A stretch of DNA of 64,000 nucleotides from Sipunculus nudus (taxonomy: Eukaryota > Annelida > Sipuncula > Golfingiida > Sipunculidae). Position 1 is the stretch's first letter, and the number at the start of each line of letters is the position of its first letter. The stretch lies in NCBI GenBank assembly GCA_026874595.1, contig CM049319.1:21439601-21503600 (forward strand), in the 5' to 3' direction. The translations under genes and the position numbers were made by a program. The notes under the pieces were generated by a model that did not search any database, was not told the origin of the DNA, and saw nothing but the letters and a program-made list of their open reading frames with translations. This document shows positions 3,067 through 47,621 of this stretch, piece by piece.

Positions 3067-3545
3067 TTACTTCTTGGGTGCTTTCTTATCTGCTGGTTCC
3101 TTGGCCTTCTTTGCTGCTGGTGTCTTGGTCTTCTTGCGGGATTTCGTTGCATCTGGCTTCTTGGTTTTCTTGGAAGCAGATTTCTTGGCTGCTTTCTTGG
3201 GGCGACCTGTTTTTTTTTTTATTTGCCTCCTTTGGTTTCTCAGCCTTAGCAGCCTGGCTCAGACGGAAGGAGCCGGCAGCACCAGTTCCTTTGACCTTGA
3301 CCAGCTTACTCTCAGGAACAGCCTTCTTCAAGAAGCGGCGGATAAATGGAGCCAGTTTGGCGGCGTCAGTCTTTTAGTTGGCGCCCATGCATTTCATATT
3401 TGCGGCCAGAGATGAACCCTTGCGTTCCTTCAAAGATTTGATGGCAACAACAATCATATGGTAGCCACTGGTTGGCGTGTTCGCTAAGCCTTTTCATAGG
3501 CTTAGCAGACTTCTTTTAGCCTTAGATTTGGCAGCAGCAGCGTCA
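3067..3545 (-). pseudogene. Histone H1 (linker histone) pseudogene
   Basis: Read on the minus strand, segments in several frames together cover a linker histone. The N-terminal segment has AAAAKSKAK. The winged-helix core has MIVVAIKSLKERKGSSLAA, then KLAPFIRRFLKKAVPESKL, VKVKGTGAAGSFRLS. The C-terminal tail is Lys/Pro/Ala-rich and ends APKK plus TAA at 3069-3067. Lesions: a frame change near 3510 after AKSKAK, an in-frame TAA inside the core where the family has the start of its third helix region, and a further frame change at an 11-base homopolymer (3210-3220). No Met start can be placed; the left end at 3545 is where similarity stops. The core is well preserved, so decay is probably recent. 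Plus-strand open frames over the same bases are shadows. Confidence 0.92.
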
Positions 3546-7107: not shown

Positions 7108-8097
7108 TTATAACTCTACATCGAAAAAACAACAAATTTGATGGTGTATATTTGCTCGTATGATTGTGTATTTATGTGATGTGTCAATAATATTACTGGT
7201 GTCATCTGAAAAAGAACTAAAGCTGTCTGAAAATGAATCTAAGGAAATTGTACTGATGTTAACTGTGTTATCACTTATTAAATCGTTATTAAAAGAATAA
7301 AAACTAAAATTATTTGAAGGTGTGCTTTCTGTGTTTACTGTCCAAATGCTTGTTGTAGATGATCGTAAGCTGTGTGGGTCTTTTTCTCTTGCTATAAGTA
7401 GTTGTTCTGTTGTCTTCTTGTTTGTGATCTTGTCTTGATTAGTCTCTTGTTTGTTCTGTGTTTTCTTGAGCTGTTTCTTTTGGTTTTTCTTGTGATGTTT
7501 TTGTTTTGTTTTCTTGTCTTCATTCTTTGTACGACTGCTCTTTGATTTCTTTTTTGAGTTTTTGTAAGCTGATAATACTGAAATAAAATGAAAATAAAGG
7601 GTATCATAATATAATTCATAAAGAGGATTTATGATCACATTTTGCATTTTTATAACATTATTATTATACTAAACTATTGTGATATGAAGGTGAATAGATA
7701 ATATTTTCCTAATAATTAAGTAAGTAGACTGTTTTAGTATCAATAGATATATTTCGTGATTCATCAAAATTTGTGTTTGATCTAACAGAACTTGAAATAT
7801 GCTCAGTTTAATGTGTTTCATGGAATGTCAAATCCTTAATAATCTGTCTTTATACAAAAGTATAAGAATAGTTACAAATGGTGACATTTATTTGCATGTT
7901 CAGATAAAAAATGGTTATGTTTGATTAGTTATTTAGATTATATCGTTCATCCCTCCGTCAGGTGAGCATGATTTAAATCCTTCTGTACTGCAGCTATATC
8001 TACAGGTAAAAATATAAATGAATCATTGACTGTACTCACGTGTTACTTTCGCTAGCCAAATGACCATCCCGGTCAAGTAAGAAGTAAGTTTTGCCAT
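7108..8097 (-). CDS. Gene A: unrecognised Lys-rich/Ser-rich protein with a CCFFDVEL C-terminus, 175 aa, two coding exons
   Basis: Coding exons are 8097-8040 (58 nt) and 7577-7108 (470 nt). Acceptor TTACAG precedes the ATG, donor GTGAGT follows exon 2, and acceptor TTTCAG precedes exon 3. The join (phase 1) keeps one frame of 528 nt. Residues 1-24 (MAKLTSYLTGMVIWLAKVTL, then LSAY) form a hydrophobic stretch that could be a signal peptide ending near LSA, or a membrane anchor. Residues about 25-80 are a basic Lys/Gln/Asn/Thr block. Residues 85-160 are rich in Ser, Thr, Asn and Asp, with SIWTVNTE, NNFSF and SLDSFSDSFSSFSDD. The tail is ICCFFDVEL. No domain family is recognised. Gene B (24454-25411) is a paralogue with the same exon layout, identical intron phases and about the same length, which is the main evidence that the gene is real. 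Function is unknown. The FDVEL end only loosely recalls KDEL-type ER retrieval signals. Confidence 0.75.
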
Positions 8098-8630
8098 CTG
8101 TAACGAAAATTTAAAAAATATATTATAACTTCTCAGGATGTTTACATGAGTGTTTTATTTTTAAATATTAAGTTCATTGGTTAGCATTTCATGGTAAATT
8201 AAGTATGGTAATTATCCCAGTAATCAGTATTGAATATTCAAATTGATAATTAATTCCTCCAATACTCGCAATAGATCAAATTTAACTTTCATGCACCACC
8301 AAACATTTATCTCACAGTTATTCTGTTTAAATTGAATCGAAGTAGATATCGGAGTAAAAATTAGGTATAAATCCCCCCTAATATTTTACGAACTGTTTTA
8401 ATAACATAATTACTAGAGGCATAACGTATCATAAATTAATTACTAGTAAAAACTTATAGTATTGTTTAACTAATATTTATAGTACAAAATCCTGTTTCAA
8501 TGACTGTACAACTAGTACTACTAATAGTTATACTAGTAATAGTGTACTATTATATACTAGTTACTACTAAGTAAATTAGCCTATATTATATAATAAAGAA
8601 AACAAAGTCAGACGGAAAACCAGAACTTAC

Positions 8631-8690
8631 CGTTGTATAGGTCGTGTGTTGTTCTTTCACGTCTTGTTTGTTAGATAATTCTCGTGCAAA
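8631..8690 (-). other. Gene A non-coding first exon (5' UTR)
   Basis: Downstream of the TATA box on the minus strand the sequence runs to CTATACAACG and then the donor GTAAGT at 8630-8625. It holds no ATG. The 3' boundary is precise; the transcription start near 8690 is inferred from the usual TATA spacing. The same exon with the same donor is present in gene B (ends 26187). Confidence 0.65.
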
Positions 8691-8714
8691 TGACGTGAAT
8701 CGTTAGTAACCGGG

Positions 8715-8722
8715 TTTATATA
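8715..8722 (-). promoter_or_regulatory. TATA box of gene A
   Basis: TATATAAA on the minus strand in the context GGGTATATAAACCCGG. Sequence and position are conserved at gene B (26271-26278). Just downstream both copies have a TGACGT-containing element (CGTCATTTGCACGAG), a CRE-like half site. Confidence 0.75.
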
Positions 8723-9145
8723 CCCAAAACATTCGAAATATATGACAACCACGTCGTATTTTATATCATTTCCGGTCAGATTTCTCTCTATATTTTTAAA
8801 CTTGTCACTGTCAGCCAATGAGTGTGCGAGTTACGTGGATGTCAGAGTCATGACAACGATGCTTTGTCGAACATCATGTACCGGGTGACCTGACCGCCTG
8901 TTGCACTGTGTGACCTGCTGTAACAAACTGATACTTTGTAGTGCCACCAAATACTGACCTAGTTATATATGTTTATGTGTATAAGCATTACCACGAGAAT
9001 CAGACCAAAGCATTAATGAAGAGATTAATGTGCACATCAAAATGAGTTATCTGTGTCCTCTGAATAAGGATTATCAATGTTTCTATGACATTAATTAAAC
9101 ATCCTTTTAAGATGCCGCAGTGACGTGTATACATCTTTGGGCAAG
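8723..9145 (-). promoter_or_regulatory. Conserved upstream block of gene A
   Basis: About 420 bp upstream of the TATA box match the region upstream of gene B (26279-26690) closely, for example ACATCATGTACCGGGTGACC, TGATACTTTGTAGTGCCACC and GCATTACCA. The far part (about 8965-9140) also occurs at 38340-38505 without a gene. It is either a shared promoter or enhancer, or just the extent of the duplication. Confidence 0.6.
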
Positions 9146-9302
9146 TCAGTTTTACCTTGAACGGAAAGAAGATAATGTTTTAATGTTAAAAAGTGAGGCA
9201 GCCGTGCTTTTATAAATTTCAGTTTCACTTTCAAAAAAACATAAAACTTTATTCAGGATTGATCTTTGACATTATATTTAATTTATAAAAAGAGGGCCGG
9301 GG

Positions 9303-9534
9303 GTTATTGTATTGTATGCCCCCGTGGTTGAAAAAAAATGCACCTATTATGACTAAATTATGCTATATACAAGAAATAAGGTTAAATCAATGATTATAGT
9401 ACTAATATGACTATTAGGGCGTTATTGTATTGTATGCCCCCGTGGTTGAAAAAAAAAATGCACCTATTATGACTAAATTATGCTATATACAAGAAATAAG
9501 GTTAAATCAATGATTATATTACTAATATGACTAC
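9303..9534. repeat. Two-unit tandem duplication, 118-bp period
   Basis: Units 9303-9420 and 9421-9534 are nearly identical, both opening GTTATTGTATTGTATGCCCC. The only differences seen are one extra A in a poly(A) run and a few substitutions, so the duplication is recent. Confidence 0.9.
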
Positions 9535-10990
9535 TTATACAGTACTACAGTTTCAATACCACTACTACTACTACCCACTACTACTACAATAATGATAATC
9601 ATTGCTATTTTTATATGGTAAGATACATTTGAAACATATTTCTGAATACAATAAAAAATGGATACAATATAATATTTACTTGGTCCGGAAAGGATTTATC
9701 CTGAATTTATAAAAAAAAATAAATAAATAGTGTCAGAACCTGAAACTGACAAGGTGATTGGTATGCTAAATGCACATATCATGATAACTCGCTAGATCTG
9801 AGCGAGATCTTTCAGTTTACGTCAGGCATTATCAACTGCACGTGAGGTGTATTTGTTCATTGACTGGTTGAGGTCAGGGAGTGCCGTGGGTGTGGTAAAT
9901 TTTCGCGATTTATACTTTTTCAGTGTTTCACGTGGGTTTCATTTTCGTGTTTTCACCATACAGTAACCTACACGGAGTATATTTATTGATACAGTACATT
10001 GTATTTGATACGCGCGCCACACCTTCAACAATTTGACCTAGATTCATGAGAACATACAACAATTGGGATAATCACCATGTTCAGATTAGGTAAATAATAT
10101 AAAAAGTTAGATATTTTTGCCTCTGCCTAGAGGGTATGCATTCATCCCCGTTCGTATGTGTGTTTGGTCACATATGGGCGCAATACGCGTGTCCAGAGAT
10201 TCATGCTCTCTCAAGTAAGGGGGGTTGAGTAGCTTTGGGATTGTTTCTGAATGTATTAAATAAAAAAAAAACTATTTCAGAAATGGATAAAATAACAAAA
10301 CTGCTGATAATACGATATGATTCACCCACTTCCACGACACTGTGGTACTCCGCCAATAAACTCTCAAATAAAAAAAAATTTATGCAGGTTTTATAGATTA
10401 GAATAATATAGTGAAAACAGTTTTACTTCTTTACTAAAAATTTACTTCAGTCGCGATTACCTGAAAAACACTGAAAAATACCTAAAAAAATCCCCGTCCT
10501 AAGAAAATGGTTTATTATTATTGAAACTACATATTCAGAAAATGGGGGGTTGAATGTGGTATATACCTCGTCATAATTGCCCATGTGTGTGTGGGGGGGG
10601 GGGGAGAGGTCGAAGACCCTTGTTGCGAATGGAAATTGCGACCCTGTGTTCACATCTAAACTCGCGCAGACATGAACAGAACCTCATGAAATTTCCAGGG
10701 CATTTTGTGAATGGTCCTGTCTTGGCTCCGGAACATGATCCGGATTCAGAAACGTCAACAACGAATAATCACACATGTACAGTCGCTTATGCAAGAATGA
10801 ACCCGGGATTATAGGCGGAATAAGTGGATGCACACATGGTTTTGGGAACACCCCCTCCCCCCGCCCCACCAACACACGTGGCGGAGGCTATGCATTCCTT
10901 AGAGTGCAGATTTCTACTTGTTTATAGTATAAAGCTTAAGACAATTGACGCAACAGGCTTGGATACCGCAAATGAGATGTACAAGGATGA
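9535..10990. other. No gene seen; short simple repeats
   Basis: Contains a (CTA)n tract at about 9556-9590 and a run of 12 G at 10593-10604. Open frames around 10450-10870 overlap each other on both strands and show no recognisable protein features. Confidence 0.5.
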
Positions 10991-10996
10991 GTGTGA

Positions 10997-11255
10997 AGCG
11001 AGGAGGGTGTTGGTAGGGGGACCCTCAGGAGCAGATAAAGTGATAAAGGGGAAACAGCAGCGGCACCTAGTGGCAGAGGGTGGGACCTGCAGAGAGAGAA
11101 GGAGGGGAAGGGGGAGTGATGAAGGGAACTTGCTGAACAGATACCAAGTGAAGCGAGGACGGGTGTTGGTAGAGGGACACTCAGGGACAGGAAAAATGAA
11201 AAAGGAGAGACAACAGCGACACCTAGTGGCAGAGGGAGGGACCGGGGAGAGCTAA
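10997..11255. repeat. Two-unit purine-rich tandem repeat, about 155-bp period
   Basis: The units at 10997-11100 and 11152-11253 share GTGAAGCGAGGA, GGTGTTGGTAG, GGGACAC/CCTCAGG and CACCTAGTGGCAGAGG. A forward open frame of 143 codons spans both, but it reflects the purine bias of the repeat. Confidence 0.75.
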
Positions 11256-11825
11256 CTTAATTCAGTCCACCCGTCAGAAGCTGAAAGAAACAGCTGCAGG
11301 GTGACTGATGCTGACAGCGTCATCTATGTTAACCACCCCCCCCCCCCCCAAAAAAAAAAAATAAATAAATAAAAAATGAGAATAAATAAACGACCCCCCG
11401 AGGAGGCCAAGGTTACGTGACGTCACACGGTTCTTTATTTATTTATTTTTTTCTTTTGGGGGTGGGGGTGGGGGAGGGGAGGTATTTATGGATTTATTAA
11501 TTATCTAAGGTTTTTAATGATCGTCAAATGGACGGTCAAAGGGGATGGTTTAGTTAACTTGTTTGGGGGGGGGGGGGGGGGGAGACTGTTTGATTTTTCA
11601 GTGTTGTTCATTCACTTTTTCTTTCATCCTTTTTCTCTCTCGTGAATACAATCTGTATGTACATACATTCTTTTTCATTCACCACACTGCAGTCATTTTA
11701 GGCGTATGGCTGTGCCACGTTTGTCGTATATCAGGGTTCCGTTTATGGGCGGGCCCTACGGCCTCAGCCAACATTTTTTAAAGGCCCATTGAACTGTTGC
11801 CATATATATATATATATATATATAT
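11256..11825. other. Non-coding; poly(C), poly(G) and (AT)n tracts
   Basis: 14 C at 11336-11349 next to an A-rich run, 18 G at 11565-11582, and (AT)n at about 11802-11825 abutting the solo LTR. No gene recognised. Confidence 0.7.
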
Positions 11826-12685
11826 TGTTAAGGAACCTAATATAAACAGATCACGTATGCGTGATGAACATAAATTTTGTAATGGAGGAAAAAAAATCAA
11901 ATTCTGTAACACTAGGCAGCGTGAAAAGTCTAGGAGAATGAATATCAGTGTTTTTTTGTTACCAAATAACCATAATTTATTCTTAAAACAACCCTAACAT
12001 TACAATACACTAAATCAATACAATTACACAGTACAAAAACAGTCAGTAAATTAATATAATCACACAGCCTGATAAACAAAGTGCACAGTACCTGGATACC
12101 ACCACTGTCACAGCGACAAGTCCTTTAAAGCATATCATTCAGATGAACAGTTCACACAAATCCTCTCAGCGTATAACAGTCCAGTTCATTCACAAAGTCA
12201 ATCCGCCTTAATCCCAAAGTGAAGTTCCTGTCAAAATCCCGAAAGCAAACTGAAGACTATATAAAGATCCCTTACAAATCCAGAAGAAAATTTATAATTG
12301 CCGCATTTATCGGAATAGGTCCCAAAAACTGACTTACACGCTTCTGTGTCCGCTGGCATATTCTCTCTCTCTCTCTCGGCTCTAAAACACAGCCCCTATT
12401 TATAGCTTCTCATCTCAAGCCGAGAACTTTCAATTTCTCGAACAATCCAAAGAATCTAACATGATACATAGTACAGGAAACATCTAGAACAACATCGCTG
12501 TGTCTCTATATACCAGGGCCCACACGTGAGCCGGGCCGGCTCGGCCAGGCGAGAAAGCCCCAGACTAGCATGACATCGAGAGTTCAACCAGTACGGATTA
12601 AACTGAGAATGCAACACCCGGCCAGGCGAGGCCGCTACAGCACGAGTTACGCCCGTGTCACACAATAAAAAATACATCTGTAACA
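11826..12685 (-). mobile_element. Probable solo LTR, 860 bp
   Basis: On the minus strand it starts TGTTACAGATG and ends CCTTAACA, giving TGTTA...TAACA ends as in Ty3-type LTRs. Inside, in the right order for U3-R-U5, are a TATA box (CTATAAATAGGGGC, about 12396-12409 on the plus strand) and a poly(A) signal (AATAAA in AGAATAAATTATGG, about 11976-11981). There is no adjacent pol, primer site or polypurine tract, so this is a solo LTR or very short relic. A clean target duplication is not visible because both flanks are microsatellites ((AT)n and (TG)n). The minus-strand open frame at 12456-12686 is not called as a gene. Confidence 0.6.
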
Positions 12686-14539
12686 ATAAATGTGTGTGTG
12701 TGTGTGTGTAAGTGTGTGACTTGTAAATTACTTTTGGCTTACCTTAAGCCATTGCCAACGTATGCCTTGCACCAAGAGCATCTCTGCAAACTGACTTCTT
12801 TTAGATAGGTGGTCCAAAAAAACCCAGCACTACTCAATCTTGTCTATGGACATCCAAAAATTTTCATTAAAATAATCCCTGGATCTAATGTAGTTTGCCC
12901 CTCGCTGAATCATTTTTTTTTTTTTTTTTCTTCTTTAATCATGGAACCGGAATCTGTGCTTTCACCTCTAGCTGCAGATTGAACCATAACCCGACATATC
13001 TACGAAGACATGTCTAATCGGACCTTGGGAAAAACTCCGCTGTCGAGTGACATCTGACTTTGTTTTGCCGCGCGAAATTGTCTATACCCGCATGCGACGA
13101 CCCGTTTGGAAAGGGGCTTTCTGTATGCTGGTCCCTGTGGGCGTCTCGCGCGGTTGATAATCCGTACGTATACGGAACGGCATGCACCCTGAACCATCCT
13201 CATCCTAAACAAAAAAAAAAAGTCCACAAATCAGCGACAAATGGTGCCACGTTTTAGTGTGCGCTTTCTCGTCCGAGACAAGTTGCTGAAGTGATATTCA
13301 CTCTGAACATTTGGAAATTCTCTTCAGCTTGTGTTCATGATTACTGAGATGATATTAAAAAATAATTATAACATAGACATATTGTGGCCCCATAATTTAT
13401 GGCGAAAAAATCTGATGTGACATACTTATGTGGGGTATTAAATATAATGTTAAAAAGCTATTTGGAACTTGGACTGGTATATTCATATTTTATTATAATA
13501 TGTATTTGAAGTTTAATTCCCTTATTTTATCCACTACACGCATTCATGCACACCCCCGCAAAATCTCATGTGCAAGAGTCATAAATAAACACAGTCAGTT
13601 TTAAAGTTTAGAATTATCCTAGAAAATAAGAAATACAACAACAAGCTGGAAAAGGGCGGTTAAACCCCAACATTCCAATCCTATAATTCCTATATTTTTT
13701 ATATAATCTATAATCATATATGATATAATTATATAATTTCTTATTAAATATACAGCTGTTTGTATAATATTCTTATTTGGTTAAATTCCCCTGCAGCTTT
13801 CAATGAATATTTCTATAAATTTGTTTTTATTATTCGATATTTAACTAAATGGTTTCGTCCAGTATTTGTTGATGACATTTCCCAAAGAATAAATAACAAT
13901 CCATATTATTTGTCTTGCTAAGGTTGTCTGTCTTACTTGTTTCATCCATGGTAATCATATCTGCCAATTTTAACTTTCCCTAATGATCACAGCCAACTTC
14001 CATAAAAGCACTAAAATATAAACATATTTGGCAACCTAACCACCCAAGCTAATTAATTACATGTACATTAGAATTATTCGGACTATTGGTAAACTGTGTG
14101 GGCCTCAGTTGATGTCATGGGCCATACCCTGGGGGCTAAAGCCATGCACCGCTGGTCCACACGAAGGGGACCCGCGTATTTATCTTCTACATTTATTTAG
14201 TCATTTATCAAATAAACCGCTTTGTAACTATGCTAATAAAAATGAGTCAATGTATCAGTAATAATTGATCACAGTTGGTAATCTTATACCTACATGTTAT
14301 ATTTTTTTGTGAATTTTAACAATTAAATAACAAGAAAATACCCCTCAATTGACAGTAGCGAGACTGCACTCGGGCAGTTCGGACAGTCGTAACAAATCTT
14401 CAGAAATGAATCCAGCAGAAGTGCACAAGAATGCAGTAGTAAGCATACAGTTTTTCAAAATTTTCCACACCGTGGGAGGGGGGCACCCTCTCCCACACCC
14501 TCCCCTGTCCGGGATTTCCCCCTCGAATCCGCTTACTGA
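12686..14539. other. Unexplained AT-rich stretch
   Basis: (TG)n at about 12691-12710 and a poly(T) run near 12914. The overlapping opposite-strand frames at 13000-13257 are shadows of each other. No gene or repeat family recognised. Confidence 0.5.
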
Positions 14540-14678
14540 CCCCCCCCCCCCCCCCCCCCCGCCAATAGGGTCATGCTATGGGTATGGCCCTTTATATATA
14601 TATGTATGTATGTATTTGTACATACTGGTCTACGATTGCTCCCCCCCCCCCCCCCCATGAAAATTTGGTTTCGCCGCG

Positions 14679-14730
<52 letters not shown>
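14540..14730. repeat. Poly(C) tracts and (AT)n microsatellite flanking the Penelope-like element
   Basis: 21 C at 14540-14560, 16 C at 14641-14656, and (AT)n at about 14682-14728. The (AT)n tract is the left neighbour of the inverted-repeat element; a matching tract is on its right side at 16651-16709. Confidence 0.9.
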
Positions 14731-14759
14731 CTGAATTCTCCGGGTGCTGGCTTAAGACA

Positions 14760-16647
14760 GTCAATGAACACAAAAAGAAGAGAGACATCAACGCCAACAT
14801 TTCAAACAATCATATTATTTGGATAACATGTACAGATTGTTGCTAAATTTTCAGCTACCCGTGTAGCCTTCGTCAGAGCGAGTGACTAACTGTAAACAAA
14901 GCTGATAGTGTGACCCTTCGCTAGGTCAACGGGGCTGGCTTGCCAGCTAAACTCATTAATCAATCTGATGTCTTGTCAGGACTGGCCTGTGTATGTCCAC
15001 ATGAAAACAGGGCTGCTGGGGTGTCAAAAACAGGGAGGGGTTAGTCTCGAGGGGAAAAGTATGTGCTGAGTGCCAGGTATTTACAGAGAAAAGCCAAGTC
15101 TTTGTTTAATCCTTTTATGTGCGTACGTAGTGTATGAATGTGCCTTTGTTCTGATGTGAATCTGTCTTTGCTGGAGGGAAAGTTGCCTTTAAGGATGGTG
15201 CATGTTAAATCTCGAAGAGAATGGTCGGATTTGTTGAAAATCCTTTAGCGTATATGCGTTACATTGATGACATATTTATTGTATGGCAACACGGTCCAGA
15301 ATCTCTAGAACATTTTTTGCACAAGCGAATAATGTCAACCCTCATATCAAATTCACAATCGACTCCTCACCCACACAAATCCCATTCCTTGATGTGTCAG
15401 TTGCCATCACTGAAGGACATTTGACTACCAGCATTTATCATAAACCAACTGACCGTCACAGCTATCTCCATTACAGTAGCTTCCACCCACAACATCTCAA
15501 ACGAGGGATTGTATTTGCACAGATGCTGCGCTACAGACGCATATGCTCAAATGATTCAGATTTTAAATGCAAAGCACTTGAATTAGCCAAACATTTCCTC
15601 ATTAAAGGGTACCCTTTCAAGTTAATCCTACAAAATTTTGAAAAAGTTTGTAATATTAAACGAAACAGCCTCCTCAGGTACAAAGAAAAAGACACAAATT
15701 CACGCATCCCCATGATCCAGGAATTTCACCCGGCCATCATCTCTATCAACAAAAATATACAAAAATGCTGGAATAACTTTAATTCAAATCCCGCTACAAA
15801 TTCTCTTTTCTCCACGCCTCCCGTTGCCGCTTACAGACAACCTCCCAACCTCAAACGCATGCTTGTCCACTCGAAACTACACAAACAAAACAGCCCGTCA
15901 GGGAATGTCAAATGCGGTGACTGCCGCTGTGAGATTTGCGATATTTTAAACACCAAACCCACATTTCAGTCCCCAGGATCTAACATAACCCTCAGGCCAG
16001 GCCCCTTTTCTTGCAATTCCTCAAATGTCATTTACTTCATTACTTGTAAAAAATGCCCCAATGGGGAGGGAAATTATATAGGAGAAACCGGCACCAAATT
16101 CAGGCTCAGAATGAACAACCACAAAAAAAACCATCCGCGACAACACTCCCGGATTCCCCGTGGCCGCACATTTCAACAAATCCGACCATTCTCTTCGAGA
16201 TTTAACATGCACCATCCTTAAAGGCAACTTTCCCTCCAGCAAAGACAGATTCACATCAGAACAAAGGCACATTCATACACTACGTACGCACATAAAAGGA
16301 TTAAACAAAGACTTGGCTTTTCTCTGTAAATACCCGGCACTCAGCACATACTTTTCCCCTCGAGACTAACCCCTCCCTGTTTTTGACACCCCAGCAGCCC
16401 TGTTTTCATGTGGACATACACAGGCCAGTCCTGACAAGACATCAGATTGATTAATGAGTTTAGCTGGCAAGCCAGCCCCGTTGACCTAGCGAAGGGTCAC
16501 ACTATCAGCTTTGTTTACAGTTAGTCACTCGCTCTGACGAAGGCTACAGGGGTAGCTGAAAATTTAGCAACAATCTGTACATGTTATCCAAATAATATGA
16601 TTGTTTGAAATGTTGGCGTTGATGTCTCTCTTCTTTTTGTGTTCATT

Positions 16648-16650
<3 letters not shown>
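14760..16650 (+). mobile_element. Penelope-like element with 480-bp inverted arms, 5'-truncated
   Basis: The interior encodes the end of a Penelope-type reverse transcriptase followed by a GIY-YIG endonuclease. The arms 14760-15239 and 16171-16650 are inverted copies of equal length with essentially one mismatch noticed (near 14865). The right arm contains the last codons and the 3' end of the element; the left arm is an inverted copy of that 3' end joined to an internal RT position. Both sides are (AT)n. The fold-back structure, truncated RT and EN are characteristic of PLEs, which often carry partly inverted terminal repeats. Confidence 0.9.
15241..16369 (+). pseudogene. Penelope-type RT (C-terminal part) plus GIY-YIG endonuclease, two frameshifts
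   Basis: Begins at the RT palm motif YMRYIDDIFIVW, so all upstream RT motifs are missing. It continues through IPFLDVSVAITEG and IYHKPTDRHSYLHY (RT end), a Cys-rich linker (CGDCRCEICDIL, probable zinc-binding), and the GIY-YIG domain with NVIYFITCKKC and NYIGETG, finishing at YFSPRD and TAG at 16367-16369. Two one-base frame changes are visible: in a six-T run near 15311 and in an eight-A run near 16122. Both are homopolymer slips, so sequencing error cannot be excluded, but the missing 5' half means it is not autonomous. Confidence 0.9.

Positions 16651-16709
<59 letters not shown>
16651..16709. repeat. (AT)n microsatellite
   Basis: Uninterrupted TA repeat directly abutting the right arm of the Penelope-like element. 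Confidence 0.97.
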
Positions 16710-16712
<3 letters not shown>

Positions 16713-16739
16713 CCTGTATTGCATCTGCTATTTGATAAT

Positions 16740-16910
16740 GCTCTGTCAGTATAATGTCAATATCATTAGTAAAAACTGAAATTGTCTGATGTTGAATCTA
16801 AAGATTTTATCTGATGATGCCTTGTGTCTTTGCTTCACTTACCAAATTACTGTTCATGGGATTAAAACTAAAATTATGACGTGTTTCTGTGTTGGTGATA
16901 CTGAAAAAGG
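16740..16910 (-). pseudogene. Degenerate third copy of the gene A/B last exon
   Basis: Minus-strand reading gives NTETRHNFSFNPMNSNLVSE, resembling gene A NTESTPSNNFSFYSFNNDLI. After a frame change it gives SLDSTSDNFSF, resembling SLDSFSDSFSSF. At DNA level the match to 7190-7345 is visible along about 150 bp (for example AACTGAAATTGTCTGATGTT, GAATCTAAAG, AAAACTAAAATTAT). The Lys-rich part is absent and a CTTTTTCAG acceptor-like string precedes the match directly. The 3' end (the CCFFD part) is missing where the (AT)n tract and Penelope-like element begin. Confidence 0.55.
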
Positions 16911-17088
16911 ATGAAGAATTATCCAGAAATCATACATGCCATGGTTTGATGGTATTTTATATTGAAAAAGAGCAATTTAAGTAAACCCAAGCATTATGAC
17001 ATAATGTATTAATGGTGAAACAGCAAATAGCACTTCAAGTGATGAAAAAAGTTTATAAGGAAAATGACAAAGTATTGAAAAGATACAG

Positions 17089-17245
17089 TTAACACCAACC
17101 AGTTACATAACTTAGGGTCCAGTCTCTGTTCTGGGTGCAGTCCTTGACATACACGTTTATGTTTTCTGTCATTCTGGATGGTGAATAGATCATTAGATCT
17201 ATATCCGCATTTTCCGGATCAGACGCACACTGCCTCTCATTTTCC
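17089..17245 (-). CDS. Possible terminal exon of an unknown gene, 51 codons
   Basis: Minus strand: acceptor TTTTGCAG at 17253-17246, then a phase-1 open frame beginning ENERQCASDPENADIDLMIY and ending SYVTGWC before TAA at 17091-17089. It has three Cys and balanced, coding-like composition unlike its AT-rich surroundings. No upstream exon can be identified; the next sequence is repeat R1. I do not recognise the protein. It may be the last exon of a decayed gene or chance. Confidence 0.22.
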
Positions 17246-17439
17246 CTGCAAAAGTGAACATACGTCATAAATATTACTTATAATATGTCTTATTTTTTTG
17301 CGTGTCCTTGTAATTTCATAATTCATTAGATGCCCCAGAACACACACAGAGATATAAAGTGTAATAGGAAGTTTTTTTAAAGTATATTTATAATAATAAT
17401 AATATCATAATGACAAGAGAGCCCAGTGACAGATAAAAA

Positions 17440-17935
17440 CTGACTGTTGGCACATGCTAGCTACTAGCACTTTCTGACATTTTCTTTGTATTTCCATGCG
17501 TTGTTCAAAAATGTTTTGGCCTTTTGACACGCGGCTTGAAACGTACATCGCTAGAATTTCATAAATTATTAAAACATGCCCTAACTTTGAAATGTACAAG
17601 CCAGGAAATAGACAACACACAGCTGGCGCTCCAGTGCAGCTTGAAATTGACATTCTGTGATATGCCTGCGTTCAAAACAAATTTATATGTGACCCTAGAA
17701 TGGATCAGATGGTATTACATAAATTATTTCTTGTTTTTCGTGATAATGATTCTTATACGGAACCATCCTAAATTAAATCAAATATCCAACTTTTTCATAA
17801 ATTAATGTGCTTTAGCATTACTGTGACCATTTCGTCATATTAAAAAAAATGGATACAGATCTACTATGATTAAAAATAGTACTTCAAGTACAGCCAAAAA
17901 CTCAGAGCTAACATAAAAACTGGATGAAATACCTG
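17440..17935. repeat. Interspersed repeat R1, copy 2
   Basis: Matches 5600-5790 and, over a longer range, 37645-38020: TTTGAAATGTACAAGCC, GACAACACACAGCTGGCGC, GTGACCCTAGAATGGATCAG, CTTATACGGAACCATCCTAA, and the end CAGAGCTAACATAA. Non-coding. Confidence 0.75.
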
Positions 17936-18276
17936 CGGCGCCGATATCGGAGGGTAATACGCATGATACATCATATTGCACCACAATATCTGCACTTAAT
18001 ATCCATATGTAAAATTTCTTTCAAGTAATCAAATTTTTTAGACTTTTTCATGACCTTAAAACATTCACGGCCTTTTTAACTTGGGATTTGATATATCACG
18101 AAGCTCCTGCATAATAATGTTCAAAGACCGAATAATAATAAAATAGTAGATAATAAAATATATTAAATATATTAAATATAACAAATATATAAAATAAGTT
18201 TTATTATATCTGCTGTAAAAGTAACCCTTTTGTTAACTTTTATGAAATGGTATGAGTGTGTGTGTGGGGGGTGCGC

Positions 18277-18306
18277 GGGGGGGGGGGGGGGGGGGTGAGG
18301 GGGGGT
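18277..18306. repeat. Poly(G) tract, 19 bases, in a G-rich patch
   Basis: Run of G at 18277-18295 followed by TGAGGGGGGG. Confidence 0.9.
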
Positions 18307-18489
18307 GTGAGGACACTGCATTTCCTGCCTTTCTTTCAATGTTTGGCAATTCACAGGGAAAATATTGAAGAAAGGCTATAGCTATCTACAAATCATTATT
18401 TCGTGACCTTTTAAATGACTCTTGCAGTTTTGGTTTATTTTTCTAAAATTATGACTTTACAGTATTGACATTTTAAATCTCAACTGAAT

Positions 18490-19045
18490 TTTATGAATTT
18501 TTGAGGTCGTGGGAACGAACAGTTAAATCGAATGGCACTTGGAAGAGCGCATATCACCGCCGAGGCAGAACAATATCCCAATAGATCCTCCGCTTAATAA
18601 ACACCAACGTTTAATGGGATCTACCCAAGTCTATACCCCACCCCACAACAGCTAAATATACACCAACGTTTAATGGGATCTTCCCGATCTGTATCCCACC
18701 CCACCACAGCGTAAATGATCCACCCCTAAATAAACACCAACGTTTAATGGGATCTTCCCAATCTGTATCCCATCCCACCACAGCGTAATTAGCGTAAAGC
18801 AAAATACAGTAAAATAGAACAAACAGGCACGGGCGACAACAGGACCTCCTCGTCATATTGAAAGATACTATAAAGGGAGAGGACATTTTTATGTATCTGT
18901 TGTACTGGCTGTACATAACCAACTATATCAATATTTCAGATTAACCAGATAGATGTATTTATCATAACATTATGTATACAATATTACTTTGGAATTCCGT
19001 GTGTTTTGCACAATCTGACGCTTTAAAGAATCCTTTGAAAAATAA
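18490..19045. repeat. Interspersed repeat R2, copy 2, with internal tandem units
   Basis: Three tandem units of roughly 65-75 bp, each containing CACCAACGTTTAATGGGATC and a CCCACCCCAC string, lie between about 18590 and 18790. Flanks match 6350-6830 on both sides (GGCACTTGGAAGAG; CCAGATAGATGTATTTA). The minus-strand frame through the units is a repeat shadow. Confidence 0.75.
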
Positions 19046-21399
19046 CAAGGGACCCATTGGTCACGACGCTCAGCTGTTATGAGTTGATAGTGTTTAACTC
19101 AATGTTATGTAAGATTTTGATAATATCCTTGGAGACAGGGAAGAGGATTGATGTCATTTATATCATTTACAATTGGAAATGGTGTGCTTTTTCACATAGG
19201 TTTTGACTTTTCCATAACTTTTATCTACATTGCAGTAAAATTTAAAGGAAAAAACTGTCAATTATCAGTCATGTTAATTATGCTTTTTACAAATGAGTTA
19301 ACTGTTATTTAATAATTACAGGTTATTCCTCACCAAGACTATTAATTAAAAATTAATAACAAATATTGTGTCAAATATAATTCAAAATAAAAATAAAAAG
19401 TGTTTTCTAATAGATGTTTTTAAGAATATAATTGATATAAATGATTATTAAAATAATATTATAGAATATATTCATGACTGCATTCATGAATAAATTTTGA
19501 AATAATCGAATGTATCCCAGTATAACATAAAACAGTTTGTGCATGGATGGAAGTGATGAGAGAGAAGTCTTTGAAGTGACCTTACAAATACGCAATATTT
19601 AATGAAGAAAAATTGCTTAAAAATCGTATTTTTACCCAAAATACATTTAATTTGACATTTAGCATCTAATGTCATAATACCATTAGTTTTGCTTACTTAA
19701 GTAACGTGTTAGGAACTGTTATTGATGAAATGTGGGTTTTAATGTCATTTATGTCAAAATCTTAAAATTTTTAAAGTTGCTACTCCGGGTATCAGAAAAA
19801 CTTAATATATTCATTTTTCCCATGGGTTGATTTTGATAGATTTTTAGTATGTCTAACTAAATACCTTACGACAATGCATTGTGCAAACAGAAATTCTGTT
19901 GCAATTATATTGACATTTTTCACTCATTCTGCTGGTCTAAGTTGCTTCAACCTGAAGTTACTCAAAAACAACTTTTTATATAAAAAAAGTCAAATATTTA
20001 ATTCATTATCATGAGAAATACGTGTTGTGGTTGCTGGTGATGAAAGATGAAATGACTACTTCTACTTTCCAAAGTACGCTCATATATACACTCAAATAAG
20101 TATCCCGTAAAGTTTCAGTTCTTACATAAAATATATGTCAACAACATAATGTAACATAATCCTAACATCCCTGTATATATAGTGTTGCTCAATATGACTC
20201 CTATAAGATAAAAGCTATTACACATATAATATTTCCATCCCCATATTATATTAAAACTTTAAACATCTCTCTCTCTCTCTCTCTATCCCTCAGAAACATT
20301 TAAAGTCTTCTCCCAAAATTCCTTATATCCTTTGGGCGACATCTTGCATATAACAAAATTATCTACATTCTTGACATGATTCCCTTAAGGTTCCTCGCTT
20401 ACGGTTCCACAAATAAAAGATCCAGTTACGAGAGTACCAGAAATTCCTTGCGAAACATATATGCTAATAACAAATATATATTTGAAGGTCAACCTATTAG
20501 AGATTGGGGGGTTAAATCATGGTGGTAAATCATGCCATGCACATGAGGGGTATATTTTTATGCTTTTTAGTGCCATGTAAGGAAATTTAAATACATACAA
20601 AACTAAACAAATACAAATACAAATAATGCACGTTTGTTGTTCATTGAATGCATGTTCCCCTTCTGTACAGTAGTGTCCATAGTATAAGTTTCGCACTGAA
20701 CAGTCCGGATTGGTTTGGACAGATCTTTGTGCACCGGTTTTATTGTCCCATACACTGGTATGATTGCCCATAGAGCACAGTTTACTTTTGTAATGATAGT
20801 TGTAGCTTTTTTTCTGCCCAAGTGTGTATAACTCGCATACAGCCTATATTGTGTCAGCAGTGAGTTTTACTTTCAGGTTGGAGTTGACCGGCCAAAGTTG
20901 GACAATTACCAAGTTGGTCCGTCTGGTAGTAACGGCCTTGTTTATTTGTGTGTTGGTTCATCATCAGAGTCCTTCATACATAGTCCTTATGGCCTATAAA
21001 TAAATAGAAAAGTATTTGTTATAAGCTTGAACAAATTAAGAAAGTTATGTTGAATATAGCGATAAGTATGTCCGGCCAGTGAAATGATTAACGTCTGACG
21101 CGTCTCATAAAATTAATTTTTCAAATATAACAAATTATAAATAGCTTGTAGGTCCAGTGACAGAGACACATTGGCTGTGGTCACTACAGCACTTCCAATC
21201 CAAGTATTGTTTAATTTCTAATGTAAATGAAAGGATAAGGCCAAGGTTGATTTCACAAGCACCGCTCACGTCAATTTTGATCCCCCCCCCCCCAATAACA
21301 AATGTTTTAATAGAAATTTATTATCGAAACTTTATAATAAAAGGTCAACATATATCAGCCCTCCTGCACCGCCAGTTTCTGAACAAAAGAGTCTGAAGA
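19046..21399. other. Unexplained AT-rich stretch
   Basis: No gene recognised. A (CT)n tract at about 20266-20285 and 12 C at 21282-21293. Open frames are short and low in complexity. Confidence 0.5.
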
Positions 21400-21560
21400 G
21401 ACACCATCCACTTTTAAAACTGTTGTTGTCACATCTGGCTTGAAATGTACATCGTCTGAAACTGACATATTAAACATTTTGCTCTTTCGAAATATACAAG
21501 GCTTCAAACTGACAAAATACACAGTGGTGCTCCTAAACAGCTTGAACTCTTCCAACCGTA
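21400..21560. repeat. Repeat R1, partial diverged copy 3
   Basis: Contains GGCTTGAAATGTACATCGTC, AAATATACAAGGCTTC and GACAAAATACACAGTGGTGC, aligning with the core of R1 copies 1 and 2. Confidence 0.6.
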
Positions 21561-21646
21561 AAAATATAACTCAGGTAAAAAAATATATAAATAAATAAAT
21601 TATTGCTTTACGGACTCTTGGGACCAGATACTAGAATGGCGTGTTA

Positions 21647-22444
21647 AGTAGGGCTCACACATCGCCGGTGTTGTCCCCGATGTTGTCCCGATGTGACATC
21701 GGGCTAACATCGGGAAACATCTGGGCAACACCGGGAAACATCTGGACAACATCAAGACACATCTGGGCAACACCGGGGAGCTTGAAAAGATCGGGGTGAC
21801 ATCGGGAGATTTTTGAACATGTTCAAAATTTGTCAAGATCGGGCCAACATCGGGAAACATCTGGGCAACATCGGGAAACATCTGGGCAACACCGGGACAC
21901 ATCTGGGCAAAAATCCTTTCTGGTCCTCCCGGGCCAGCTTTTGCAGCAGCTGGTCATACTGGCCAAAGAGGGGTCTGCGTAGGAGCCAGTCATGGGCCCA
22001 ACAGGAGCGAATAGTCTTCTTTCTAAGGACTGTCTCCTCTGTATTCTTCTTTCTTTCTTTGATGGCTTGTCTTCTGTCCTCGCTTTCAAGCTCGTCTAAG
22101 AGCAAGGCAGCCCCTGCTAAAGCCACCTGAAGCCTTAAAACACGCCTGCGTCTCTGCTGGTATTGCCAGAACATAGTGTACGAAGCCATTTCACTGAATG
22201 TGAACACGCTTTTAGAAAATTACAGCAACTGCGCAGTAGAAGGACCGGAGCCACACACACTTCCGGTTCTTCTTTCAAGATCGGGGTAACACCGGGAGAC
22301 ACCGGGGCGACACCGGGACAACATCTGGACAACACCGGGACAACATCTGGACAACACCGGGACAACATCTGGACAACACCGGGACAACATCGAGACAACA
22401 TCGGGACAACATCGGGAGAACACCGGCGATGTGTGAACAGGCCT
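21647..22444 (-). mobile_element. Non-autonomous PIF/Harbinger-type element, 798 bp
   Basis: TTA at 21644-21646 and 22445-22447 fits the 3-bp Harbinger target duplication. The ends are inverted repeats sharing CACACATCGCCGGTGTT and continuing into GATGTTGTCCCGATGT over about 40 bp. Between them are two clusters of a roughly 20-bp repeat (ACATCTGGACAACACCGGGA type) at 21700-21905 and 22280-22430, surrounding a transposase fragment. No DDE catalytic domain is present. Confidence 0.85.
21911..22189 (-). pseudogene. N-terminal fragment of a Harbinger-type transposase
   Basis: From MASYTMFWQYQQRRRR to about LAREDQKGF the frame is open (about 93 aa). It contains CWAHDWLLRRPLFGQYDQLL, which matches the conserved N-terminal block of HARBI1-like transposases (an R-x-W-v-r-p-W-L-x-R-R-x-x-x-G-x-Y type pattern). 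The frame then runs into the CCCGGTGTTG repeat array, so the catalytic part is missing. It may be a first exon kept inside a deletion derivative. Whether the short product is made is unknown. Confidence 0.75.
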
Positions 22445-22447
22445 TTA

Positions 22448-24324
22448 GGGCGATTTAGTTATTTTCCTTTTTATTGTTCGAGAAACGACATAGCATGACC
22501 TTATAATTCACACACATAAGCTGTTTATTTCCCTCAGGTTATTAACACTGGAAAATATCTACATTATATTTTTGCCTGTTGGTTTATTTATATGTATAAT
22601 GTTAATTATGAAATGTTACCTATAATTGTATCTGAATTATTTTGCAAAAACGAGATGTACATCATTACAGAACAAGAGAAATGAATGTTTTACCATGTGG
22701 CAGTATGTAAAATTTCAGCCTACAGTAAAACTTTACAATTTAAAGGGGTTGGAATTTGGAACAATATTATTAAAGAAATTGATTTGTTAAATTGATCCTT
22801 GTTGTGCAATATAAACATTTAAGCGTCGTCTGAAGGAATTTTCCTTCTCCATTTTTGGATCATATCAATTATATTTAAATTCATTTTTTACAATTATATT
22901 TGTTATATATTTTGTTTTCTATAGTTTGAAAAGTTTCATTTTAGTTGTTTTTTTTTCATTGCACTGTGTTTGCACCATATAACCTACTACATTTAATGTT
23001 AATACTGAGAGGATCCGAGCCAGGCCTCTTTGTCACAGGTACAATTATATAAAAATGAACTGTTTCATGTATAAGAAATGTTTCAGGTAATATCATAAAC
23101 AATGACCTGATCTTCATTTACCCAGAACAAAATAAAAAATAAATTGGCGTCCTGTTTGCCGTATCATCTCATCATAAAGATTGTATTTATCTTAATTTGT
23201 ATCAGTTCTTCATAGCCATTGGTACAAAAAGTGTCGATTTTTGTCAAACCCATCTTTTTTCAAAGCAATGATTTATCATATATTCGGTCATCTTGCAAAG
23301 ATCGAAGTATCGATACATCAATATTGGCCGAGACAGTCCTCAGACATATGTAAGTTAGTTTGTTTTCTTTTTAAAGATTTAGTTTACATTTGCAGACTTA
23401 TAAAAATTATTAGTTTACATGGTTATTTTGTACATTTTGTACATAATTCATGGAGGTTGTTCCTTTCAGCCATGACAGTCACTGATGCGTTTTCAATCAA
23501 AGGTATCTCTAAAAATAAATATATATATATGATTTCGACTTAAAAACAAGAAGGATATCATACCTATACATGGCTATATACCATCTAAGATGTTAACGTA
23601 AATTGTTCGTCATGATATCAGGCAAGATTTTATTTAGGAAAGTCCAATTTTTTCTTCAAAACTGTACTGCAAATACTACACGTGTAGGCCTTATTTTGAC
23701 ATGGCCTTGGAAAAAAAGCTGTGTATATTACAAGGGACAATGCTTATTTCCCATTAGAAATCTGTTCTCGTTTTTCAAATGAATGAAACATATTAATTCT
23801 CCCTTCTTCCAATATTTCCATATGAGATCAAAGGGAAACTTTGGGTCCTTGGGCCCCTATTTTCCAGTATGAGCAGATACTGGCTTACTGGACATGTTGA
23901 TGTTCAAAGCAAAATTAAAAGTTAAAAAAAGTCCCTTAAATGAGTTGTTATTGCTCCATGTGTAAATGGATATTAATTTTTTTGTAAAGTGAAAAGACAA
24001 TTGGTGATGAAACATAATAGGACTGAAACTGGCAAAATAATATCTGCATCATCAGGGGCGAAATTTCCATTAGCAAGGTAGGGGACGCGGAATTAACCCC
24101 CCCCCCCCCCCCCCCCTTCACATAGGCTGTTAAGTTGCAACGATGTATAACATACACACACACACACACACAAATGGTACAGAAAAATGGTACACACATC
24201 CAACACTGCGCCCAAGTTAATTCTTCATCTGTGATTACTTTAAAATAGATACCATCATATTATTATTAAGTTGGGTTTATAGGATATACAAACCAGACAA
24301 AATGCATTTTCAGTTAAAGAATAT
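22448..24324. other. Unexplained AT-rich stretch
   Basis: No gene recognised. 20 C at 24097-24116 and a (CA)n tract at about 24154-24171. Confidence 0.5.
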
Positions 24325-24330
24325 TTTAAT
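24325..24330 (-). terminator. Possible polyadenylation signal of gene B (ATTAAA)
   Basis: ATTAAA on the minus strand about 125 bases past the stop codon, in a block shared with the region 3' of gene A (followed in both by ATATT and a later AAATGCATT). Confidence 0.4.
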
Positions 24331-24453
24331 GATTTTTTTTTATATTTAGACATAGAATACAAGGGTTATAATTATTATTTAATTTCTTTTCACAATATAT
24401 TTGATATTTTATATTTGATTTAAAAAAAAGATTAAAAGATAAAGCTAATTTAC

Positions 24454-25411
24454 TTATAACTCTGTGTCGAAAAAACAACAGATGCAGTCGTGTATGTTTG
24501 AATGTATGATTTTGTATTTGTTATGTCGTGCTGTGTCAATAATGTCACTGTTGTCATCTGTGTATGAACTTAAGCTGTTTGATAAATCATATAAAGAAAT
24601 AGTGTTAATGTTTATTGTGTTTACACTAATTAAGTCAGTATTAAAAGAATTAAAACTAAAATTATTGGAATAAGTGTTGTATGTGTCCATGTAAGTGTCC
24701 GTGTTGACTGTCCAAATGCTTGTGTTTGCTGAAATGAGGCTGAGTGTGTCTTCTTGTTTTCTTGTTATGAGTAGTTGTTCTGTTATCTTCTTGTTTGTGG
24801 TTTTCTCCTGTTTCTTCTCTTGTTTGTTTTGTGTTTTCTTGAGTTGCTTCTTTTGGTTTTTCTTGCACTGTTTCTGTTTTGTTGTCTTGTCTCCATTCTT
24901 TGTGCGTTTGTTCATTTTTGCTTTGGGTTTCTTGTCGGATTTGAGTTTTTGTGCTGATAATACTGAAAATAAAATAAAGAATTATACAATAATAATGCAC
25001 AAAGAGAATTTATTCATTAAATAATATTTGAGTGATGATAAAGTAAGTGATCAAGTTATTAAAGCGATATATGTCATAATTAATCAAAATTTGTGTTTAT
25101 CTCAGGAAATTTGAATTGTATTCAGATTCATGTGTTTCAGGGAGTACTAAATCCTTGATAATCTGCTTTTGCAAAAGATGTTAAGAAAAGAACAGTTACA
25201 AAATGGATATTTCTTCGCTAGTTTAATTATGGAATTGTAATACTTCATTAATGATTTAGATTGCAGGATTCAACCCTCTTTCTGATAATCATGATATAAA
25301 TCCTTCTGTACAGATAGTTAAGCTTCAAGAAATGGTTCATTAACAGTACTTACGTGTGATTTTCGCCAGCCAATTGACGACTCCGGAGAAGAAAGTTGTC
25401 ACTTTTGCCAT
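24454..25411 (-). CDS. Gene B: paralogue of gene A, Lys-rich/Ser-rich protein with a CCFFDTEL C-terminus, 188 aa
   Basis: Coding exons are 25411-25354 (58 nt, starting exactly at the ATG after TTACAG, donor GTAAGT) and 24962-24454 (509 nt, acceptor TTTTCAG). Together they give a 567-nt uninterrupted frame. The N-terminus MAKVTTFFSGVVNWLAKITL, then LSAQ, aligns residue for residue with gene A, including Lys3, Trp14 and Lys17. The basic block follows (KKNQKKQLKKTQNKQE is identical in both), then TTNKKITEQLLITRK, SIWTVNTDT, NNFSFNSFNTDLIS, and the end CICCFFDTEL. Gene B has extra residues around YMDTYNTY. Differences between the copies are mostly substitutions and whole-codon indels without stops, which suggests both have been kept as coding. 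Function is unknown; secretion or membrane association is inferred only from the N-terminus. Confidence 0.75.
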
Positions 25412-26186
25412 CTGTAACGAAAATAAAAATAAAAATATACGAATCGTATTACAAGACATTAACTTATCTAATAGTTATTTAGTGTTTAATGTTAGGTTTA
25501 CCAGATGGAACTTTTGGTAAATTTCGCGAAATTAATCCATCAATCAGTATTAATTTAAATTAATCTAAATCCTCAAATACAGTGTAACATTCATGCACCA
25601 TGTCCGAGATTCATTTGAATTAATATAGCCAAATATAGAGAAAGCAAATGAAATATCAATAATAAATTCACTTTCATTTTCCATATACAGTATATACATA
25701 TAATATCATTATAGTGATAAAATAAGCTGTTAAGGGGGGGGGGGGGGCATCTTTTCACTTAGGATGTCTTCCGACGTGGTATTCTGTAATTTGTTGCATT
25801 GATTATCAAAGTTGGGAAAATTGTTAACTTTTTATACTCAGTTTAATAATGCTTTTATGCAGTATTAAGACAAGAGGCAAGAATCCCCCCCCCCCGCCCC
25901 CCAACATACACACTTTTTCCAGTGTTAGAAACTTTTTCTCGGCCCATGGGTTATTCCTATATAGGCTTTAATTATATACTACTATACGTGCTATTTTTAC
26001 AGTATACTTAGGTATAAATTATCATTTATGGTTTACTATGCTTTACAAAAATTCGGTCTTAACTAAATTGAATAACTATAAGTATAACCGTTATACTTTA
26101 TATTATATATAGTATAACTATAAGCATAATTTAACTTATAAACACTTGTTAAACTTAACTAATTCAGCCTGAAAACCAGAACTTAC

Positions 26187-26250
26187 CGTTGTGTAGGTCG
26201 TGTGTACTTCCTTGACGTCTTGATCGTTTGATAATTCTCGTGCAAATGAC
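26187..26250 (-). other. Gene B non-coding first exon (5' UTR)
   Basis: Ends CACAACG before donor GTAAGT, as in gene A, and contains no ATG. The 5' limit is inferred from TATA spacing. The intron between this exon and the ATG exon (25412-26186) contains 14 G (25734-25747) and a C-rich run (about 25885-25902). Confidence 0.65.
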
Positions 26251-26270
26251 GTGAATCATTAGTAACCGGG

Positions 26271-26278
26271 TTTATATA
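26271..26278 (-). promoter_or_regulatory. TATA box of gene B
   Basis: TATATAAA in the context GGTATATAAACCCGGTTACTA, matching the gene A promoter apart from one base. Confidence 0.75.
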
Positions 26279-26690
26279 CCTAAAACATTCGATATATATG
26301 ACAACCACGTTGAAATTGATATAACTTCCGGTCATATTTCTCTCTATATTTTTTTACTTGTCACTTTCAGACAATCAGCGTGCGAGTTGCGTGAATGTCG
26401 GAGTCATGACAACGATGCGTTGTCGAACATCATGTACCGGGTGACCTGACCGTCTGTTGCACTGTGTGACCTTCTGTTACAAACTGATACTTTGTAGTGC
26501 CACCAAATACTGACCTAGTTATATATGTTTATGTGTATAAGCATTACCAGCAGAATCAGACCAAAGCATTTATGAAGAGATTAATGTGTGCAACAAAATG
26601 AAGTATGTGTCCTCTGAATAAGGATTATCTATCTTACTATGACATTATTTAAACATCTTTTTTTTTCAGATGCCACAAAGACGTGTATAT
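26279..26690 (-). promoter_or_regulatory. Conserved upstream block of gene B
   Basis: Aligns with 8723-9145 with few gaps (GAACATCATGTACCGGGTGA, TACTTTGTAGTGCCACCAAA). Similarity ends near 26690, at an A/T-rich simple sequence. Confidence 0.6.
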
Positions 26691-38200: not shown

Positions 38201-38339
38201 GGCTAATATGATGGAAAAACATAAGGAGTACCAGTATTTCTCAGTACAGTTAGTATATTATCCTGTACCGTATATTTATGTATGTCTACTATTGGGCCCC
38301 CCATTGAATATTTCGCTTCGCCGCCAAGCCTTTTTATAT

Positions 38340-38505
38340 ATGTTATGTTTATATAAGCATTACCACCAGAGTCAGACCAAAGCACTTATGAAGAGATTAA
38401 TGTGTGGATCAAAATGTATTATTTGTGTCCTCTGAAGAAGGATTATCTATGATACTATGACATTATTTAAAAACACCTTTTCCAGATGCCACAAGGACGT
38501 GTATA
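38340..38505 (-). repeat. Third copy of the gene A/B upstream block, without a gene
   Basis: TATAAGCATTACCACCAGAG, CAGACCAAAGCACTTATGAA, GAGATTAATGTGTGG and AAGGATTATCTATGATACTA match 8975-9140 and 26535-26685. The promoter-proximal part (TATA box, first exon) is absent. It is nearer in sequence to the gene B copy (TTATGAAGAGATTAATGTGT). Confidence 0.8.
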
Positions 38506-45995: not shown

Positions 45996-45999
45996 GACT

Positions 46000-47619: not shown

Positions 47620-47621
<2 letters not shown>

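Follow-up and report, generated by a model that had tools for sequence, protein, structure and literature searches.

A stretch of 64,000 nucleotides (nt) of the Sipunculus nudus genome (assembly GCA_026874595.1, contig CM049319.1, positions 21,439,601 to 21,503,600; called the window here) carries two minus-strand genes, A (8690-7108) and B (26246-24454), whose sequences make them members of a larger orphan protein family known from one genome. We hold it nearly certain that this is a real protein-coding gene family, and its coding sequence (CDS) is under purifying selection overall. The initial annotation had described A and B as a gene pair and as the candidate for a new system. Instead of a pair there are 13 loci with the last exon plus deeper relatives, and what the sequence supports is an orphan protein family only. 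The reading we prefer, to which we give an even chance, is that the family encodes an endoplasmic reticulum (ER)-targeted, disordered and charge-patterned protein, most likely exported, and that its intact copies stand under the same core promoter.

Genes A and B have in common a promoter, a short non-coding exon 1, a 58-nt exon with the ATG at its start, a phase-1 intron and a single long last exon. This architecture had been claimed at the outset, and the exons were found as annotated, with GT-AG splice sites and with the ATG of exon 2 immediately after the acceptor. In gene A, exon 1 (8690-8631) has no ATG and ends at the donor CAACG/GTAAGT (8631/8630; the slash marks the junction), exon 2 (8097-8040) is followed by the donor GTGAGT, and exon 3 (7577-7108), preceded by the acceptor TTTCAG, begins with LLSAYK, is Lys-rich and then Ser/Thr/Asn/Asp-rich, and ends with ICCFFDVEL and a stop. 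In gene B the three exons lie at ~26246-26187 (donor AACG/GTAAGT), 25411-25354 (donor GTAAGT) and 24962-24454, the last ending with CICCFFDTEL and a stop. The exon 2/3 junction reads ACA C/TA TTA TCA. These models were made from sequence alone, and the first base of exon 1 is in both genes a guess, placed ~30 nt downstream of TATATAAA (in gene A from the TATA). The product of gene A has 175 amino acids (aa) and the N-terminus MAKLTSYLTGMVIWLAKVTLLSAYK..., and that of gene B has 188 aa and the N-terminus MAKVTTFFSGVVNWLAKITLLSAQK....

Exon 3 of A matched 15 blastn places in its own 1.43-Gb genome, which are 13 loci and two fragments on C9. Exon 3 of B matched 17 places, the same 13 loci and four weak fragments; all such place counts are minimum numbers. 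C14 carries eleven of the 13 loci (ten in 21.2-22.05 Mb and one at 49.9 Mb) and C4 the other two. In nine of them exon 2 is 58 nt long and exon 3 is open over its full length, with FFD[VTM]EL at its end, and all nine keep the exon 1 donor, which was found in none of the three loci broken by stops or frameshifts (L014, L020 and L021). At one locus, L019, exon 3 is open and lies near a retroelement-like insertion; the presumed promoter and exon 2 are upstream (L023, L027), with the exon 2 stretch duplicated around this retrotransposon-like insertion, which by eye looks gag-like. The presumed exon 2 of L019 has Pro where the others have Leu after the conserved Trp. Recent pairs are similar far past the gene, over 4 kb in L011/L012 and more than 5 kb in L020/L021 (up to the limits of the compared sequence), and this likeness well outside the gene fits segmental duplication. 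L020 and L021 are ~100% alike across 5.26 kb; the two may stem from a single recent duplication or be one locus assembled twice. Individual copies of the family may be dead. A possible and weak relic of exon 3 is located at 16771-16877 of the window (minus; 68.5% over 108 bases, E 6e-4).

The ratio of nonsynonymous to synonymous substitution (dN/dS) was calculated for nine of the 13 exon 3 loci, with L014, L019, L020, L021 and the C9 fragments left out. Between A and B it was 0.30, that is, not near 1, the value that had been named as telling against the genes. When the clade of L009, L011, L012 and L013 was compared with that of L010 (gene B) and L015-L018, all 20 pairs gave dN/dS of 0.23-0.35 by the Nei-Gojobori method (NG86), while the 16 pairs within clades ranged from 0.29 to 1.19. 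Under a Goldman-Yang (GY) codon model the maximum-likelihood omega of the nine intact copies was 0.444 (kappa 1.6), and omega=1 was rejected at a cost of 16.0 log units (2 delta lnL 32.0). Gaps in codon alignments are multiples of three by construction and give no evidence, so we counted them after aligning each of the 36 pairs, which are not independent, as plain nucleotide sequence, with intron 2 as control. Gap lengths were multiples of three in 132 of 138 cases in the CDS versus 52 of 260 in intron 2. Third positions differed most (excess 0.319 versus 0.175/0.124). The claim that the frame is kept open despite many substitutions and indels holds for the family, with complete open frames at nine of the 13 loci. 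The last 12 codons are no better kept than the rest, their dN of 0.25 being the highest of four regions (synonymous sites saturated).

A promoter stretch of gene B (26175-26620), used as a genome query, matched 29 places, more than exon 3 did. Thirteen belong by position to the exon 3 loci and four lie in tandem ~9.9-kb units at C14:21.395-21.425 Mb (21394891, 21404808, 21414710 and 21424643); in one of these units, L026, promoter and exon 1 lead into retrotransposon-like sequence instead of coding exons. At L028 promoter and an exon-2-like stretch were found, with no exon 3 within the 4.2 kb examined. Other places are four partial ones on C14 and C4:38.15 Mb, five on C5 and two at C4:7.3-7.6 Mb. 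For the places examined, which leave aside three of the four ~9.9-kb units, C4:7568935, C4:38149532 and the partial places on C14 at 21.917 Mb, the idea that this promoter drives other gene families was rejected: L026, L027 and L028 look like members of this family interrupted by insertions, and those on C5 and C4 are deeper members of it.

These distant members, at five C5 loci and one C4:7.3-Mb locus, have the same layout and little sequence identity. L029 encodes 177 aa and lacks the FFDxEL tail, L032 encodes 144 aa with the altered tail IHDCICSFFDTLF, and exon 2 of L030 is broken. Three tandem copies at C5:70316100-70333500 (L031, L033 and L034) have 109-aa frames ending at a stop that is lacking in L029, and their homology to L029 runs on past this common stop; they are either a shortened subfamily or an inherited pseudogene. 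Exon 2 is 76 nt long in L029, L031, L033 and L034 and 67 nt in L032 (counted by eye), and it ends in phase 1 in all of these as it does in the nine intact A/B-type copies (58 nt each). Two protein alignments were made, one of six of the nine intact proteins and one of A, B, L013, L018, L032 and L029 (four of the nine intact proteins plus L029 and L032), with L031, L033 and L034 left out of the latter. Invariant over the second set are, in A numbering, M1, G10, W14, K17, T19, K37, K41, T95, I97, W98, N101, T105, S140 and D145. These invariants make the hallmark of the longer members a GxxxWxxKxT motif within the hydrophobic stretch at the N-terminus together with IWxxN near the centre, in a Lys-rich and then Ser/Thr/Asn-rich chain. 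The three shortened copies have Asn for K17 and Leu for the Trp, and their frame stops before the IW motif. The CCFFD(V/T)EL tail, first proposed as the family's mark, has to be given up in this role, because the Cys-Cys pair occurs in only four of nine intact proteins (CCFFD in 4, CSFFD in 1, FCFFD in 4) and the tail is absent from L029.

The family seems to have no recognised domain and is apparently unnamed. None of the six family proteins scanned (A, B, L018, L029, L031 and L032) had a Pfam match at cut-off. The best Pfam score was that of Ureide_permease with B (18.9 bits, E 7e-4, cut-off 27); it spans the hydrophobic-basic part and is read as reflecting composition. Sequence searches of PDB gave no relative (best E 0.24 and 1.7), none was present among 600 pattern matches in IMG/VR, and an Rfam scan of the window gave no match at gathering scores. 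The strings of six family peptides were printed in none of 5.39 million papers searched, and such a string search shows no more than that. The absence of a known family, as noted at the start, thus stands for Pfam and PDB, and orphan status is defined by Pfam, PDB, IMG/VR and the literature string search, a narrower field than protein databases at large.

The protein features described from A and B held up across the proteins scored. In all nine intact proteins the first half, of Lys/Gln/Asn-type composition, is net-positive (+12 to +19, Lys 27-32%) and the second, in which Ser, Thr, Asn and Asp make up 53-59%, is net-negative (-7 to -10). The N-terminus is hydrophobic in all 11 proteins scored, with a best 15-residue hydropathy of 1.43-1.97. 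All nine intact proteins end in D-[VTM]-E-L and have two to four Cys in a variable pattern. The chain encoded by exon 3 is predicted to be intrinsically disordered; an AlphaFold model of exon 3 (input the two sequences of A and B only) had a predicted local distance difference test score (pLDDT) of 38, a predicted template modelling score (pTM) of 0.17 and no residue with a pLDDT at or above 70.

We infer transcription, ER targeting, export and a charge-based role from these features of the sequence. The family would have spread by ordinary segmental duplication, perhaps with gene conversion, and the same ~250-300-bp core promoter would drive all intact copies. The mRNA would consist of the non-coding exon 1, an ATG exon for the hydrophobic ER-targeting segment ending in the phase-1 intron, and a last exon coding for a disordered chain with a positive Lys/Gln/Asn half and then a negative Ser/Thr/Asn/Asp half. 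A phase-1 intron after a signal-sequence exon is a common layout. The hydrophobic segment would guide the chain, as it is made, into the secretory pathway; the two disordered halves of opposite charge would work electrostatically, attaching to each other, to polyanions or to mineral and matrix. A protein acting in this way would keep its composition while its sequence drifts.

The core promoter is better conserved than the protein. In gene A it spans 8691-8940 (minus) with TCGTTGTCATGACT at 8859-8846, CATTGGCT at 8820-8813, ACCGGAA at 8776-8770, TATATAAA at 8722-8715 and GATTCACGTCATTTGCACGAG at 8701-8681. In gene B it spans 26247-26497 (minus) with TCGTTGTCATGACT at 26415-26402, ACCGGAA at 26332-26326, TATATAAA at 26278-26271 and GATTCACGTCATTTGCACGAG at 26257-26237. 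A and B are 89% identical in the promoter versus 74% in exon 3. The core could be aligned in all 12 copies used (12 of 13, with L019/L027 left out), with pairwise divergence of 0.00-0.13. Up to the presumed start, the divergence between the clades is 0.073 (0.077 with Jukes-Cantor correction), which is 6-8 times below synonymous sites (Jukes-Cantor dS 0.49-0.64, in three protein regions where computable). A relic with the upstream part only, 84-86% identical to the A and B promoters and partly matched by the B promoter query, lies at 38334-38505 (minus). Just upstream of the gene A promoter, at 9299-9533, a unit of ~117 bp is present in tandem, its copies 96.6% alike, and the C4 copies of the family carry a stretch related to it.

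This likeness may have arisen by gene conversion between copies instead of functional constraint, an explanation to which we give somewhat less than an even chance. The core divergence is roughly star-like, at 0.04-0.10 for most pairs within or between clades, and it is as low in the broken L020 and L021; exon 1 variants are patchy, L016 differing from its CDS sister L015. Since low divergence is found also in two of the three broken copies, constraint and gene conversion both fit, and the good state of the dead-copy promoters favours conversion or recent death. On the other hand, L014, the third of the broken copies, shows slightly higher divergence (0.08-0.13), and the trees of the whole promoter and of the CDS agree in their main split; by this match a wholesale promoter swap between A and B was rejected. 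Short blocks also survive in the C5 and C4:7.3-Mb relatives, namely TCGTTG[TC]CATGACT, TGATTGGCT, TTC[GA]AA[TC]GTT and AACGATTCACG[TG]CAT, as well as ACGTGGTTG with one change in L032, and that such remote members retain them speaks for constraint to at least some degree. ACCGGAAGT persists less well, and the TATA box is not kept in L030 and L031. The promoter blocks presumably resemble NF-Y, ETS and CRE sites.

The main rival to an exported protein is one tethered to the membrane on its cytosolic side, which we regard as possible but unlikely. The GxxxWxxKxT helix would be an uncleaved ER anchor, the basic chain would lie in the cytosol with its basic half bound to acidic lipids, and the FFDxEL tail would be a docking motif. 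G10, W14, K17 and T19 are invariant over the six aligned proteins, beyond what is expected of a disposable signal peptide. The N-terminal hydropathy is high enough for the core of a cleaved signal peptide, but K17 sits midway along this stretch, and the flank after the stretch is basic in most of the 11 proteins (C-minus-N charge 0 to +5); the invariant Lys and the basic flank argue against a plain cleaved signal peptide and recall a membrane anchor. No obvious cleavage site is common with the deep relatives. Several further observations also weigh against the reading we prefer. The frequency of glycosylation sequons was no higher than in shuffled sequences, and sequons were dropped as a marker of secretion. 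An ATG stands inside the presumed exon 1 in two of the nine intact copies (L015 and L016). Purifying selection is less strong within clades: the dN/dS of L015/L016 is 1.19 and that of L011/L012 is 0.70, each on one or two synonymous changes, and the values for gene B compared with L015-L018, based on 17-20 synonymous changes, are 0.49-0.70, which points to weaker purifying constraint on the B branch. Against the anchor stand the phase-1 intron right after the segment, which is typical of secreted proteins, and LLSA/[YQ]K in the A/B-type copies, a possible cleavage site. Moreover, the tail is absent from L029, and K17 is replaced by Asn in L031, L033 and L034.

A more speculative view, which we consider doubtful, is that the family is defined by its promoter. 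The ~250-300-bp control region and the start of the first exon would be the conserved heritable unit, with the blocks TCGTTGTCATGACT, ATTGG, ACCGGAA, ACGTGGTTG, TTCGAATG and AACGATTCACGTCATTYGCACGAG, and a fast-drifting, disordered, charge-patterned protein would be its cargo. The protein might then be held to little beyond the N-terminal hydrophobic helix and the IWxxN motif. If true, a lineage could use such a unit to put a diversifying set of charged proteins under one switch.

A protein encoded by a transposon or virus is very improbable. Such an origin might be suggested by the multiple copies on C14, C4 and C5 with fragments on C9 and C3, and by the transposon pieces nearby. However, the match to a transposon protein that the initial annotation had named as a refutation was looked for in Pfam and IMG/VR and not found, PDB likewise held no relative, the gene bears introns and a long promoter, and recent pairs are alike well past the gene, as in segmental duplication. 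That the copies are relics or non-coding transcripts with frames open by chance, as three broken loci among 13 and promoter places without exon 3 might suggest, is refuted at the family level by the omega of 0.44, the gaps in threes in the CDS but not the intron, and the third-position excess, and has almost no probability left.

The neighbours named by Pfam in the window, among them pieces of retroelements, give no functional clue. They comprise an RNase H-like retroelement domain (1047-1460, plus), a linker-histone (H1/H5) domain fragment (3089-3373, minus; 30.4 bits), a 316-aa frame with a GIY-YIG domain at the cut-off (15271-16218, plus; 22.6 bits), which is probably a Penelope-like element, and a reverse transcriptase domain (29787-30428, minus). 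Long overlapping Thr/His/Leu-rich repeat frames at ~45965-47292 (plus) are probably a tandem repeat; the GC skew is -0.64 over 46001-48000.

Orphan gene families restricted to one lineage are widespread, and most of them have not been studied. The A/B family is a clean case: selection acts on a protein that has no recognised domain, the gene model is precise, the same genome holds deep relatives, and the control region is better conserved than the protein. Should its expression map to a single tissue, the family would allow a direct test of whether disordered charged proteins can be conserved through composition and shared regulation instead of sequence.

Among known systems, several resemble the family in part. 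The tail FFD[VTM]EL ends in EL like a KDEL-type tail, in a hydrophobic residue like a PDZ ligand, and has an FFD core like FFAT. Ligands of the KDEL receptor follow the C-terminal pattern [KRHQSA]-[DENQ]-E-L, whereas all nine intact proteins have D at -4 and V, T or M at -3, outside this pattern. The tail is also without the acidic flank of FFAT motifs, and it is missing in L029 and altered in L032. Myticalins and CRP-I of mussels are expanded, lineage-restricted, multi-copy families of secreted proteins, as the A/B family may be in lineage restriction, expansion and copy number, but they are antimicrobial or Cys-rich peptides, while the A/B proteins have few Cys and no fixed pattern of them. 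The most similar architecture is that of the lysine-rich matrix proteins (KRMP) in the shell of pearl oysters, a small multi-copy family with a signal peptide, a Lys-rich basic region and then a region of different composition; inhibition of CaCO3 precipitation is ascribed to the Lys-rich part and chitin binding to the Gly/Tyr part (PMC4498902). The A/B family is likewise multi-copy and has a Lys-rich basic region behind an N-terminal hydrophobic segment. Compared by description only, its proteins are longer (175-188 aa versus 101 aa) and their second half is acidic and Ser/Thr/Asn/Asp-rich instead of Gly/Tyr-rich; since this half is of another kind, we do not assign the family to KRMP, its closest counterpart in layout.

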